This document shows positions 5,988-51,252 of a stretch of DNA of 64,000 nt, piece by piece. This DNA is from Streptomyces tsukubensis (GTDB taxonomy: Bacteria > Actinomycetota > Actinomycetes > Streptomycetales > Streptomycetaceae), in the NCBI RefSeq assembly GCF_003932715.1, contig NZ_CP020700.1:1316001-1380000 (forward strand), read 5' to 3'. The position numbers and the translations under genes are program-made. Every line of letters begins with the position of its first letter. The stretch's first letter is position 1. The notes beneath the pieces are model-generated. The model saw nothing but the letters and a program-made list of their open reading frames with translations, was not told the origin of the DNA and ran no database searches.

Positions 5988-6824
5988 TCAGAAGGCCGGG
6001 ATGACCGAGCCGTCGTACTTGTCCGCGATGAACTTCTTCACCTCGGGCGTCGTGAGCAGCTTGGCGAGCTTGACCACGCGCGGGTCCTTCTCGCTGCCTT
6101 CCTTGACCGCGAGGAAGTTGCCGTACGGGTTGTTCTCGGCGGACTCCAGGACGAGGGAGTCGTTCTTCGGGCTGAGCTTGGTCTGCACCGCGTAGTTGCC
6201 GTTGATCACAGCGGCGTCGACGTCCCCGAGGGCCCTCGGCACGGCCGCGGCCTCCAGCTCCTTGAAGGTGAGCTTCTTGGGGTTCTCGGCGATGTCCTTC
6301 GGCGTGGCCTCGTTGCCCGTACCCGGCTTCAGCTTGATGAGGCCGTTCTGCTCCAGCAGGCGGAGGGCGCGGGCCTCGTTGGTGGTGTCGTTGGGCAGGG
6401 CGACGGTGGCGCCCTCCTTGAGGTCCGCGAGCTTGTCGACCTTCTTGGAGTACAGGCCCAGCGGCTCCAGGTGGACGGTGACGACCGGCACGATGGTCGT
6501 CTTGTTCTTCTTGTTGAAGTCGTCCAGGTAGGGCTTGTGCTGGAAGTAGTTGGCGCCGACCTCACCGCTCTGGGTGGCGGTGTTGGGGGTGACGTAGTCG
6601 GCGAACTCCTTGACCTCCAGCTTGAGGTCTTCCTTGGCGGCCAGCTCGTCCTTGACGAAGCCGAGGATCTCGGCGTGCGGGACGGAGCTGGCGGCGACGA
6701 CCAGGGGCTTGGACGGGTCGGCCCCGGCCCCGGTCTTGTTGTCGTCGTTGCCGCAGGCGGTCAGCCCGAGGGTCAGTGCTCCGACGGCGAGGACAGCGGT
6801 GGTGATCTTGGCAGTGTTACGCAC
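5988..6824 (-). CDS. metQ: Methionine ABC transporter substrate-binding lipoprotein
   Basis: 278 residues. The N-terminus is a lipoprotein signal peptide ending in LGLTAC with Cys24 as the lipidated residue. The mature part is a NlpA/MetQ-type binding protein (VVAASSVPHAEILGFVKDEL, then NYFQHKPYLDDFNKK and VALPNDTTNEARALRLLEQNGLI). It binds D/L-methionine outside the membrane and delivers it to MetNI. It is last in the order metN-metI-metQ, 78 bases after metI. That gap holds a run of nine G (6894-6902 on the plus strand) touching the metI stop. The paired permease and ATPase make the assignment firm, although related lipoproteins can bind other amino acids. Confidence 0.94.
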   Translation of the reverse strand: MRNTAKITTAVLAVGALTLGLTACGNDDNKTGAGADPSKPLVVAASSVPHAEILGFVKDELAAKEDLKLEVKEFADYVTPNTATQSGEVGANYFQHKPYLDDFNKKNKTTIVPVVTVHLEPLGLYSKKVDKLADLKEGATVALPNDTTNEARALRLLEQNGLIKLKPGTGNEATPKDIAENPKKLTFKELEAAAVPRALGDVDAAVINGNYAVQTKLSPKNDSLVLESAENNPYGNFLAVKEGSEKDPRVVKLAKLLTTPEVKKFIADKYDGSVIPAF

Positions 6825-6902: not shown

Positions 6903-7703
6903 TCAGTCGGCCTTGACGGGCTGCGGCGACCGGGTCGCACCGGCCGCGCCCGTCGCTTCGAGGGCTCCGGCGGTGTTCGCGACGGCGATGGCGTCCGCGG
7001 CCCGGGAGGCCTTCAGCAGCCTGAGCCGGGGGGCCGGTCCGCCGCGGCCGCGCCGGTGCAGGGCCCGGGCCGCGTAGTCCCCGGCGAACTGGATGACGGC
7101 GATGACCGCGGCCAGCACGGCGACGGTGATCCACATCATCTCGGTCTCGAAGCGCTGGTAGCCGTAGCGGATGGCGATGTCACCGAGTCCGCCGGCGCCG
7201 ACCGTGCCGGCCATGGCGGAGTAGCCGATCAGGGCGACGACGGTCGTCGTGGCGCCGGAGATCAGAGACGGCAGGGATTCGGGGACCAGGACCTTGCGGA
7301 CCACGGTCCAGGTGCTGCCGCCCATCGACTGCACGGCCTCGACGAGACCGCCGTCGACCTCCCGTACGGAGGTCTCCACCAGCCGGGCGAAGAAGGGGAT
7401 CGCCCCGATGGCCAGGGGGACGATCGCGCCCTCGCGGCCGATGGTGGTGCCGGTGATCGCCTTGGTGAACGGCAGCAGGGCGACCATCAGGATGATGAAC
7501 GGCATCGAACGGGTGACGTTGACGATCTGGCCGATCACCTTGTTGGCGACGGTGTTGGCGAGCAGACCGCCCTTGTCGGTGAGGACGAGGACGATGCCCA
7601 GCGGCAGTCCGACGGCCACCGCGATCAGGGCGGACCAGCCGACCATGTAGAGCGTGTCCCAGCTCGCCTGCTCCAGCAGCGGCTGCATCTCGGACCAGGT
7701 CAC
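6903..7703 (-). CDS. metI: Methionine ABC transporter permease
   Basis: 266 residues from GTG 7703, whose first bases overlap the metN stop (GTGA), so the two are translationally coupled. It has about five membrane segments and the permease EAA-type loop near GATTTVVALIGYSAMAGTVGAGGLGDIAIRYGY, typical of MetI. It forms the membrane pore of the MetNIQ importer. The C-terminal tail of about 45 residues (HRRGRGGPAPRLRLL and onwards, Ala/Arg-rich) extends past the usual MetI end and looks poorly conserved. Expression should follow metN and its leader. Confidence 0.93.
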   Translation of the reverse strand: MTWSEMQPLLEQASWDTLYMVGWSALIAVAVGLPLGIVLVLTDKGGLLANTVANKVIGQIVNVTRSMPFIILMVALLPFTKAITGTTIGREGAIVPLAIGAIPFFARLVETSVREVDGGLVEAVQSMGGSTWTVVRKVLVPESLPSLISGATTTVVALIGYSAMAGTVGAGGLGDIAIRYGYQRFETEMMWITVAVLAAVIAVIQFAGDYAARALHRRGRGGPAPRLRLLKASRAADAIAVANTAGALEATGAAGATRSPQPVKAD

Positions 7704-8833
7704 TGGGCACCGTCCTTCACCAGGTTCGGAGCGGAAGCGTTCGGAGCGGAAGCATCAGGATCCGAGGGGTCCGGGTCCGAGGCGTCCGACCCGGAACCGG
7801 AACCGGGAGCGGAAGCGGAAGCGGGGTCCGTTCCGGTGATCACGTCGATCTGGAGTCCCTGTTCGCGCAGGAAGCCGATGGGGACGACGTTCTCCTCGAA
7901 CCGGCCGGGCAGTTCGATCCGCATCCGGCCGACCTGCTTGCCGCCGACGGTGTCCATCGCGGCACCGAGAATCGAGATGTCGATGTTGTAGGTCCGGGAG
8001 AGCTGCGAGATCACCGGCTGGGTCGCCGCGTCACCGTGGAAGGTGACGTCGACGACCGTGCGGTCGTCGCCCGACGCCGCTCCGCTGACCGGGAAGAGGG
8101 CCGAGGCGAGCTGCGATCCCGGGGTGGCGAGCAGCTCGCTGACCGTGCCCGATTCGACGATCCGGCCGCGCTCCATCAGGGCGGCGGAGTCGCAGACCGA
8201 CTTCACGACGTCCATCTCGTGGGTGATCAGCAGTACGGTCAGGCCGAGCCGCTCGTTCAGATCGCGCAGCAGCCGGAGGATGGAGCGGGTGGTCTCCGGG
8301 TCGAGGGCACTGGTGGCCTCGTCCGACAGGAGCACCTTGGGGTCGCCGGCCAGGGCGCGGGCGATGCCGACGCGCTGCTTCTGGCCGCCGGACAGCTGGC
8401 TGGGGTAGGACCGCGCCTTGTCGGCGAGACCGACCAGGTCGAGGAGTTCGAGGGCCTTGCGGCTCCGCTCGCGGCCCGAGAGCCCGAGGATCTCCAGCGG
8501 AAGTTCGACGTTGCTCTGGACGGTGCGGGACGACAGCAGGTTGAAGTGCTGGAAGACCATGCCGATCCGGCTGCGGGCCGCGCGCAGTTCCCGACCGGCG
8601 CGCGGGCCCTTCCCGGCGAGGGCGGTGAGCTCGACGCCGTCCACGGTGACGGTGCCGGAGGTGGGGCGCTCCAGCAGGTTGACGCAGCGGATCAGGGAGG
8701 ACTTGCCGGCGCCGCTCTGCCCGATGACGCCGTACACCTCGCCTTCCCTGACATGGAGGTCGACGCCGTCCAGGGCGGTGACCTCGCGTCCTCGCGAGCG
8801 GTAGACCTTGGTCAGGCCCGTTGTGGTGATCAC
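7700..8833 (-). CDS. metN: Methionine ABC transporter ATP-binding protein
   Basis: 377 residues from GTG 8833. Walker A GQSGAGKS is at 38-45, the ABC signature LSGGQKQR at 147-154 and Walker B with D-loop, KVLLSDEATSALD, at 166-178. Residues about 255-345 form the NIL domain, the methionine-sensing regulatory domain that inhibits transport when methionine is high, which separates MetN from other amino-acid ATPases. The last 40 residues are a Ser/Asp/Pro/Ala tail of no known role. The ribosome site is weak (GACGGACG), which fits regulation through the leader upstream. It begins the metNIQ operon, about 300 bases after a Cys-rich leader peptide. Confidence 0.95.
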   Translation of the reverse strand: MITTTGLTKVYRSRGREVTALDGVDLHVREGEVYGVIGQSGAGKSSLIRCVNLLERPTSGTVTVDGVELTALAGKGPRAGRELRAARSRIGMVFQHFNLLSSRTVQSNVELPLEILGLSGRERSRKALELLDLVGLADKARSYPSQLSGGQKQRVGIARALAGDPKVLLSDEATSALDPETTRSILRLLRDLNERLGLTVLLITHEMDVVKSVCDSAALMERGRIVESGTVSELLATPGSQLASALFPVSGAASGDDRTVVDVTFHGDAATQPVISQLSRTYNIDISILGAAMDTVGGKQVGRMRIELPGRFEENVVPIGFLREQGLQIDVITGTDPASASAPGSGSGSDASDPDPSDPDASAPNASAPNLVKDGAQ

Positions 8834-9131
8834 TGGGTTCGTCCGTCACTGTCGAGTGCGCGGCAAGGTCGTCGCCGGGCACGGGGCTTTCGTCGTCGAT
8901 ACCGTCGGACCGGCCGGAAACCGCCGTTCCCGTACGGGGCAGACACCGGCTCGGGGCGCTGCCGCGCACAGTCCTCCGCGGCCACCGCGCGGGGATCTCG
9001 TCGACGAGGTCCGGGGCGGGGGCGTTGCGGAAGCGGTCACGGGGTTCGGGGGGCAGCCACGGTCCTTCTCAGAGGACGTCGCAGGCCGCGCGGTCTCTCA
9101 CTTCGGGGCGCGAGGTGCGGTTCGGGGGCCC
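8834..9131 (-). promoter_or_regulatory. 298-nt untranslated leader between the Cys-rich peptide and metN
   Basis: No gene is apparent between the leader-peptide stop and the metN GTG. The segment is GC-rich with several short complementary patches that could form alternative hairpins. It does not show the SAM-I or SAM-IV riboswitch cores I know. If the upstream peptide is a cysteine-responsive attenuator, this is where rho-dependent or hairpin attenuation would act. Confidence 0.5.
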
Positions 9132-9218
9132 TCAGAAGGCGCACATTCGACACAGACAACGAGCACCGGGCGTGGTGTTCGCCTCGGTCGCAGGGGTGCG
9201 GTTGCTCGTCGTGGTCAT
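9132..9218 (-). CDS. Cysteine-rich leader peptide upstream of metNIQ, probable leaderless ORF
   Basis: A 28-codon frame from ATG 9218 to TGA 9132 ends ARCLCRMCAF, with Cys at 21, 23 and 26, plus Met25. Three Cys codons in the last eight positions are unusual in this GC context. A promoter-like -35/-10 pair places the -10 hexamer only five bases before the ATG, so the mRNA would start at or next to the ATG with no ribosome site. Short leaderless Cys-codon ORFs act as cysteine-responsive attenuators of sulfur operons in mycobacteria. A similar role for metNIQ is my inference. The next gene is metN on the same strand, 298 bases away. Confidence 0.65.
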   Translation of the reverse strand: MTTTSNRTPATEANTTPGARCLCRMCAF

Positions 9219-9223
9219 GGCGG

Positions 9224-9253
9224 TAAGTAAAGCAGACCGCTTTCCGCGAGCAA
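9224..9253 (-). promoter_or_regulatory. Promoter for the leader peptide and metNIQ
   Basis: On the minus strand TTGCTC (9253-9248) and TACTTA (9229-9224) are separated by 18 bases. The ATG of the leader peptide begins five bases after the -10 hexamer, which predicts a leaderless transcript. Both hexamers fit a vegetative sigma-70-type promoter moderately well. Confidence 0.6.
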
Positions 9254-9259
9254 CCGAGC

Positions 9260-9300
9260 GTCCGAATAGCGGACACTTTGGTTCGGCCATCAGATGGCCG
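9260..9300. promoter_or_regulatory. Two palindromes just upstream of the met promoter
   Basis: GTCCGAATAGCGGAC (9260-9274) has 5-bp arms, and CGGCCATCAGATGGCCG (9284-9300) has perfect 7-bp arms around CAG. The first lies seven bases upstream of the -35 box. Either could bind a repressor or activator of sulfur-amino-acid uptake. The second could instead be a terminator stem for a transcript arriving from higher coordinates. Confidence 0.45.
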
Positions 9301-9511
9301 AGGCAGCCGCTCCGGCCGCCCGTCTCACGGCTCTGACCTGCGAAATCATCGGAGCTGCCCACGGCAGGGGACCGAGTGCGGCCGGTACGGGGCGGACGGG
9401 CGCTGTGGTCAAGGCCACGATCGGACCGTCCGGCCCGGGGCCGCCGCGCCACCGCGAAGGACCCCGGGGCCGCCCGCGGCGGGCTCCGCACGCCGTAATA
9501 CGCTCGGGGCC

Positions 9512-50883: not shown

Positions 50884-51252
50884 GGATCCTCCTCGGTAGC
50901 ACCGCGCGGCCGACTGGCAGACGGCCGCGAGCGTCTGGTGAGACCAACCGCGCAGGAGCACAAAAAATGCCCCGGACGGGACACAGGCGGCAGCTCCTCG
51001 AATACCGGAGCACCGCCGCGGAACCCGCGGGGCGCACATCGGGCGGTTCCATCGTCCGTACGGAACGATGGGGACCGCCTGACCGGTGACCCGCCGCCCG
51101 GAGGGCGGTCAGGTGGGAGATCGGAGCCTCCACTTGTGGGCCGGGCACAGTCGTGTCCGGCCGGTCATCACACAAGGTTAGCAGCTCCGGCGGGGCGGTG
51201 CTAACCGGTGGCCCCGGCGGCGCGGTGCCCGGCGGGGCATATCGTGGGCGTC
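50884..51252. promoter_or_regulatory. infC leader and promoter region
   Basis: On the minus strand TTAGCA (51204-51199) and TAACCT (51180-51175) with an 18-base spacer make a plausible promoter, giving a leader of about 285 bases. Within it ACCGCC can pair with either GGGCGG or GGCGGT (51077-51112 area), suggesting alternative structures. The DUF1844 gene begins on the plus strand at 51253. No ORF is evident in the leader. Confidence 0.6.

Follow-up and report, generated by a model that had tools for sequence, protein, structure and literature searches.

Leader-peptide attenuators of the classical type, like tnaC, use the position of the ribosome on a short open reading frame (ORF) as their sensor. 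In mycobacteria, polycysteine leaderless short ORFs were reportedly described by Canestrari et al. in 2020. A passage of PMC13236596 cites these authors for the translation attenuation of cysteine biosynthetic genes in M. smegmatis. In their section on cysteine, which names no Streptomyces case, Seliverstov et al. (2005, PMC1262725) reported that Mycobacterium, P. acnes and B. longum have Cys leader peptides that lack terminators.

The closest described system is found in Streptomyces. In the part of their paper that treats this leader, Droste et al. (2021, PMC8079986) presented metL (SLIV_29928; MSTTSDRTPATEATTTPGARCMCRRMCAF) of S. lividans TK24, which precedes metNIQ, has a start that is leaderless by RNA-seq and is followed by no typical Rho-independent terminator. 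They classed metL as methionine-dependent, mentioned several methionines and threonines, and proposed attenuation of metNIQ from the sequence and RNA-seq, without a mutant test. Our literature search, which had most subscription journals outside its scope, returned nothing on this leader besides Droste et al. 2021.

Here we analysed a 64,000-nt stretch of Streptomyces tsukubensis DNA (the window) that holds an ortholog of this leader. It resembles S. lividans metL in its locus, its peptide family, its place upstream of metNIQ and a promoter spacing that fits a leaderless start, and the identical 29-residue S. lividans peptide occurs in 4 of the 76 Streptomyces loci read. The initial annotation of the window knew of no methionine-importer case in Streptomyces; S. 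lividans metL was already in print. As metL is published, the leader as an object is not new. Compared with the metL account of Droste et al., as far as it covers this leader, the present analysis adds the Cys codons, the cross-genus conservation, the complementarity to metN, the upstream palindrome and, as its new part proper, the RNA-level constraint.

Like the mycobacterial polycysteine ORFs, the leader is a short and apparently leaderless ORF with Cys codons before sulfur genes. Unlike them, it mixes Cys with Met and Arg and has no Cys run, and the metNIQ importer lies downstream instead of cysteine biosynthesis genes. It shares with the leaders in the cysteine section of Seliverstov et al. 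the short ORF, the Cys codons near the stop and the lack of an obvious terminator; those leaders, unlike metL, precede cys operons and cbs and carry their Cys codons in runs. Unlike classical attenuators, metL has no intrinsic terminator-like site before metN in a consensus scan.

Results

The leader ORF and its downstream genes

The minus-strand ORF listed first in Table 1 is real and conserved. It translates to MTTTSNRTPATEANTTPGARCLCRMCAF followed by the stop codon, with Cys at codons 21, 23 and 26, and this translation and the 76 Streptomyces loci bore out the 28-codon ORF with a C-L-C-R-M-C tail noticed in the initial annotation. The stop codon lies 298 nt from the GTG start of metN, and metI and metQ follow in that order. 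The identities of MetN, MetI and MetQ are based on best NCBIfam matches and Pfam domains, with MetN and MetQ below the curated cut-offs. No NCBIfam family matched the leader peptide at E ≤ 1, and plasmid records gave no similar DNA at E 1e-5.

Table 1. Positions in the window of the leader features and of the metNIQ genes.
Feature	Position	Strand	Basis or remark
Leader ORF, metL ortholog	9132..9218	minus	28 codons and stop; conservation, published S. lividans ortholog
-10 region CTGCTTTACT (conserved form CTGNTTNACT)	9226..9235	minus	ends 7 nt before ATG
Palindrome GTCCG-N5-CGGAC	9260..9274		upstream of promoter; conservation
Predicted three-way junction in the ORF	9156..9212	minus	consensus fold
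Predicted junction helix P1	9212-9204 with 9164-9156	minus	consensus fold
Predicted junction helix P2	9200-9189	minus	consensus fold
Predicted junction helix P3	9188-9165	minus	consensus fold
Codons 21-26, Cys-Leu-Cys-Arg-Met-Cys, presumed stall site	9141..9158	minus	tail conservation; TGT and CGA enriched
TGTCGAATGTGCGC, complementary to the pre-metN element with a 2-nt bulge	9139..9152	minus	pair counts
Hairpin CTCGC-GCCCCGAA-GTGAG between leader ORF and metN	9097..9114	minus	conserved stem
Element GCGCACTCGACAGTGACGG before metN, probable ribosome-entry region	8843..8861	minus	alignment of 76 loci
metN, methionine ABC transporter ATPase	7700..8833	minus	best NCBIfam match TIGR02314, below cut-off; Pfam ABC_tran and NIL domain
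metI, permease	6903..7703	minus	best family match; NCBIfam score just above curated cut-off
metQ, substrate-binding lipoprotein	5988..6824	minus	Pfam Lipoprotein_9; NCBIfam matches below cut-off

Conservation of the leader

An alignment of Streptomyces metN upstream regions, which the initial annotation had proposed as a check, contained the leader ORF in all 76 loci read; it was detected there from its N-terminal motif, independently of the Cys codons. These loci comprise the genome of the window, six named records (of 80 loci), 29 loci and 40 further stretches, all from the listed, closer part of the metN match table and with repeats included (72 distinct 132-nt fragments). Of 295 Streptomyces genomes searched, 286 had MetN. 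The ORF has 28 codons in 53 of the 76 loci and 29-33 in the remainder, always differing by whole codons. Its in-frame stop is either TAG or TGA, the two forms of the sequence being one base apart.

With a covariance model of the leader region, matches at E ≤ 0.1, weak ones included, were obtained in 96 of the 121 Streptomycetaceae genomes. Among 66 distinct matches that were read, 63 adjoin metN, and 62 of these 63 keep an ORF of the metL type; the metN-adjacent matches span 14 of the 17 sampled Streptomycetaceae genera. The conservation in 76/76 and 62/63 metN loci, together with the whole-codon length variants, rules out a chance ORF. The same conservation and the published S. lividans metL, as far as Droste et al. 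describe it, support the earlier view that the ORF encodes the leader peptide of metNIQ. In L247, a locus of a related genus, the promoter and the 5' part of the leader are missing and the CRMC-coding end is retained. An Actinoplanes locus (L021) had no leader ORF and was excluded from the counts.

The second set of loci consists of more divergent Streptomycetaceae, namely four divergent Streptomyces genomes and other genera, and was recounted as 62 loci without a Cys filter. A filtered form of 61 rows, which required two or more Cys among the last 16 residues (L188, L203 and L204 dropped; L247 with its lost ORF kept; L191 and L215 being one place), underlies the second-set figures for accessibility, shuffled partners and recoding stability, the covariation test of the long-range pairing, and the palindrome shuffle control. 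Loci L219 and up, here called the L219+ group, belong largely to one genus, which at a guess is Kitasatospora-like.

Outside the Streptomycetaceae there were weak matches at most. A class-level search gave weak matches in 20 genomes outside the genus (best E 0.0024), and the three that were fetched had no recognised metN nearby. In another family of the class, locus L251 has a short ORF ending in MCCRMCC on the reverse strand, roughly 200 bases from the beginning of the sequence that was fetched; it precedes an ORF that resembles a DNA-binding regulator by eye, whose first 154 residues had no Pfam match.

Promoter and upstream palindrome

The promoter motif CTGNTTNACT ends 6-7 nt upstream of the ATG in 66 of 76 Streptomyces and 59 of 62 second-set loci, and this spacing fits a leaderless start at the ATG, which would place the transcription start at 9218. 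The initial annotation had reached the same start from a -35/-10 pair. Its -10, TACTTA, which ends 5 nt before the ATG, was off by two bases from the conserved core given in Table 1, and its -35, TTGCTC, was not visibly conserved in the alignment of 76 loci; the leaderless start itself is supported by the conserved spacing and by the RNA-seq result that Droste et al. give for S. lividans. A scan for a sigma-70-type consensus found no promoter upstream of the leader ORF.

The palindrome GTCCG-N5-CGGAC is present with nine or more of its 10 arm bases in 73 of the 76 Streptomyces loci and in 40 of the 62 second-set loci. It lies 41-44 nt before the ATG in 72 of these 73 and 51-53 nt before it in 37 of these 40; the spacing in the second set is about one helical turn longer. 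In the shuffled control, 2 of 76 regions reached this level. Its conservation indicates that the palindrome is probably a transcription-factor site. A strict pattern of palindrome, promoter and ATG occurred exactly in 13 of 61 relatives, all within the genus.

The palindrome pattern alone was found at 9 places in the own genome against 1 in the control, and the metL site and locus L257 are among the nine. With a free centre, it was found 30-60 nt upstream of GGTCANGAG in 18 of the 61 Streptomyces genomes; a stricter form of this combined pattern matched 1 of the 61 relatives and did not match the own genome. Rfam identified a SAM-IV riboswitch in three of four loci with both motifs (L257 of the own genome, L295 and L296) and none in the fourth, L294. 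At L257 (G000:C1:1952080-1952145), GTCCG-N5-CGGAC lies upstream of the SAM-IV riboswitch, as it does upstream of metL. A common sulfur regulator of metL and the SAM-IV loci is possible.

The Cys/Met tail

The last 12 residues of the leader peptides in 138 loci contain 24.5% Cys and 16.2% Met, compared with 2.5% and 3.6% in the preceding residues and 0.87% and 1.3% in the window genes. At least two Cys occur among these 12 residues in all 76 Streptomyces tails and in 58 of the 62 of the second set, the other 4 having a single Cys, and Cys outnumbers Met in 61/76 and 40/62, respectively. The tail prefers rare codons: of its 405 Cys codons 259 are TGT, a codon with a share of 15% in the window genes, and of its 379 Arg codons 138 are CGA, with a share there of 2.3%. 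A spacing of C-x-C-x-x-C is common, and the window leader (C-L-C-R-M-C) has no run of consecutive Cys codons.

Arg-Met was found within the last 12 residues of all 138 tails. Among 42 distinct 28-codon sequences, Cys 26 is replaced by Arg in eight and Met 25 is invariant, and Cys-to-Arg changes were found at each of the three Cys positions. Because Arg-Met is more constant than any Cys codon, a response to cysteine is not established. The initial annotation had both the ORF and its probable role right, and was too specific in naming cysteine.

A search of the own genome for a second leader with YGYCGNATGTGY gave 26 places against 15 in the control. Besides metL, the listed frames with CRMC or RRMC within a few codons of their end are L274, L277, L279, L280, L283 and L284 (the last two being one place); they were rejected, with no metL promoter motif within 150 nt.

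Constraint on the RNA and predicted fold

The strongest new result, drawn from sequence comparison, is the constraint at the RNA level. Across one set of 53 loci, the synonymous difference between pairs averages 0.036 in the leader ORF, against 0.24 in metN over its first 60 codons (p 2e-6), and the amino acid difference is 0.129 in the leader peptide and 0.05 in MetN. The synonymous sites are nearly frozen while the peptide varies more than MetN, which means that selection acts on the RNA. Wobble positions are freest at codon 14, within the loop predicted for P3, and at codon 20.

The predicted consensus fold is a three-way junction over codons 3-21. In 35 chosen sequences, which left out the L219+ group (by eye not fitting this fold), 95.0% of the cells were paired and five pairs were changed on both sides; none of 500 shuffles reached either value, and slid controls had 25-45% paired. 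The count of further pair types was not above the shuffles (226/500), one pair common to related genera, possibly a single event, accounts for 15 of the 20 double changes, and P1 pairs are broken in some loci. In the L219+ group the Cys/Met tail is kept and the three-way fold is changed, as judged by eye. The loop bases C24 and C25 are nearly fixed despite changing encoded residues.

Recodings for the same peptide were less stable on average, with a mean z of -0.92 in Streptomyces (52 of 60 below zero) and -0.37 in the second set (35 of 51 below zero), so that the modelled stability advantage over synonymous recodings is modest. A known riboswitch was rejected, as no Rfam 15 model matched the leader even at a permissive threshold; with E up to 5, positions 8700-9400 gave one chance-level miRNA match outside the ORF. 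The single Rfam 15 match in the whole window lies elsewhere, at 50962-51169 on the minus strand, and is Scr1601, a Streptomyces small RNA.

The leader-metN stretch

The untranslated gap between leader and metN varies from about 115 to 360 nt, and GAGGGCCCC directly after the leader stop is conserved in Streptomyces. Around CCCCGA, a stem of at least four pairs is present in 68/76 Streptomyces and 38/62 second-set loci. The consensus scan for intrinsic terminators found none between the ORF and metN and three terminator-like sites at 9232-9274, upstream of the leader ORF. The GCGCACTCGACAGTGACGG element lies about 20 nt before metN and is altered in the L219+ group. By eye, metN has no clear Shine-Dalgarno sequence, and CGAC and CGGAA-like blocks recur before the GTG in much of the family.

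The strand UGUCGA-AU-GUGCGC of codons 23-27 is complementary to GCGCAC-UCGACA before metN. Of the 76 Streptomyces loci, 26 allow all 12 pairs and 56 allow 11 or more, with a C-A mismatch inside the pairing in 12 loci; in the L219+ group, 6.65 of the 12 pairs remain. An alternative pairing in that group, seen by eye only, was dropped. Covariation of this pairing was looked for and not found, since own and cross-genus partners pair alike, and energies with shuffled partners differ little (mean z -1.04 and -0.54). Covering the tail raised the modelled accessibility of the metN start by 0.069 in Streptomyces, against 0.021 for shuffled tails, and the gain exceeded that of the own shuffle in 48 of 76 loci (p 7e-5), a small effect which was absent in the second set (27/61, p 0.95). 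These models are a hint, not proof, of a long-range pairing with the metN element.

Discussion

On the best, if tentative, reading, metL is a leaderless leader ORF of metNIQ which could quite possibly serve as a ribosome-sensing attenuator for cysteine and/or methionine, acting via its fold and the pairing with metN. Transcription would start at the leader ATG, as Droste et al. reported for S. lividans and as we presume for this strain. The ribosome would translate 20 codons of structured RNA and then reach C-x-C-R-M-C. With enough charged tRNA-Cys and tRNA-Met, it would complete the leader and the RNA would refold, and UGUCGA-AU-GUGCGC could then pair with the pre-metN element and reduce the translation of metN. 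When cysteine and/or methionine is short, the ribosome would be held on codons 21-26, the UGUCGA strand would be covered and metN would be translated. The ORF, its frame and codons, the promoter spacing and the constraint on the RNA can be read from the sequences, and from these the stalling, the amino acid sensed, the pairing and its effect are inferred.

A bolder form of this reading, which we consider rather doubtful, holds that the leaderless coding sequence is also a regulatory RNA fold. The junction formed by the first 21 codons, which might bind its own ligand, would stand beside an anti-ribosome-site strand that is the Cys/Met tail, and a coding stretch of 84 nt would sense sulfur amino acids by both ribosome position and folding.

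The same leader ORF could instead control Rho-dependent termination in the untranslated stretch before metN. By analogy with tnaC, a ribosome stalled beside the stop codon would block Rho loading. The lack of an intrinsic terminator-like site before metN and the account of Droste et al., which gives metL no typical Rho-independent terminator downstream, are in line with this, as is a gap whose length varies while GAGGGCCCC stays conserved in Streptomyces. Rho alone leaves unexplained the conserved pre-metN element and its complementarity to the ORF, and we regard this route as unlikely. A leader that answers to methionine only, with secondary Cys codons, is the label that Droste et al. give in their description of metL; it agrees with the methionine-import genes downstream and with the Arg-Met of all 138 tails. 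Cys is nevertheless the more enriched residue of the tail and outnumbers Met in most loci, and ATG has no synonym, so that its constancy may reflect the RNA, which makes this narrower signal quite improbable in our view.

The tight nucleotides, and the nearly fixed C24 and C25 in the loops, would also be expected of a riboswitch-like domain that binds a small molecule, with the ORF minor except that the fold sits in translated RNA. Against this, the frame and stop are kept in 76/76 and 62/63 loci, no Rfam family matches, and the L219+ group changes the fold and keeps the tail. Several tail insertions add Cys or Met codons and others add neither, and altogether such a domain seems a distinctly poor candidate. 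The C-x-C-x-x-C spacing could suit a peptide that is itself the functional product, for example a metal-binding Cys peptide acting in trans or during its synthesis. The replacement of each of the three Cys by Arg, the frozen synonymous sites and the location adjoining a Met importer speak against it, and we find such a role very hard to credit.

The conservation of amino acid leader peptides is usually put down to their codons, yet across Streptomyces the nucleotides of metL are held more tightly than the peptide. This points to a leader in which the RNA shape and the codons work together. The presence of the palindrome before SAM-IV riboswitches as well hints at a common regulator. Our findings suggest that metL offers a testable route by which streptomycetes may adjust methionine uptake to the supply of sulfur amino acids.
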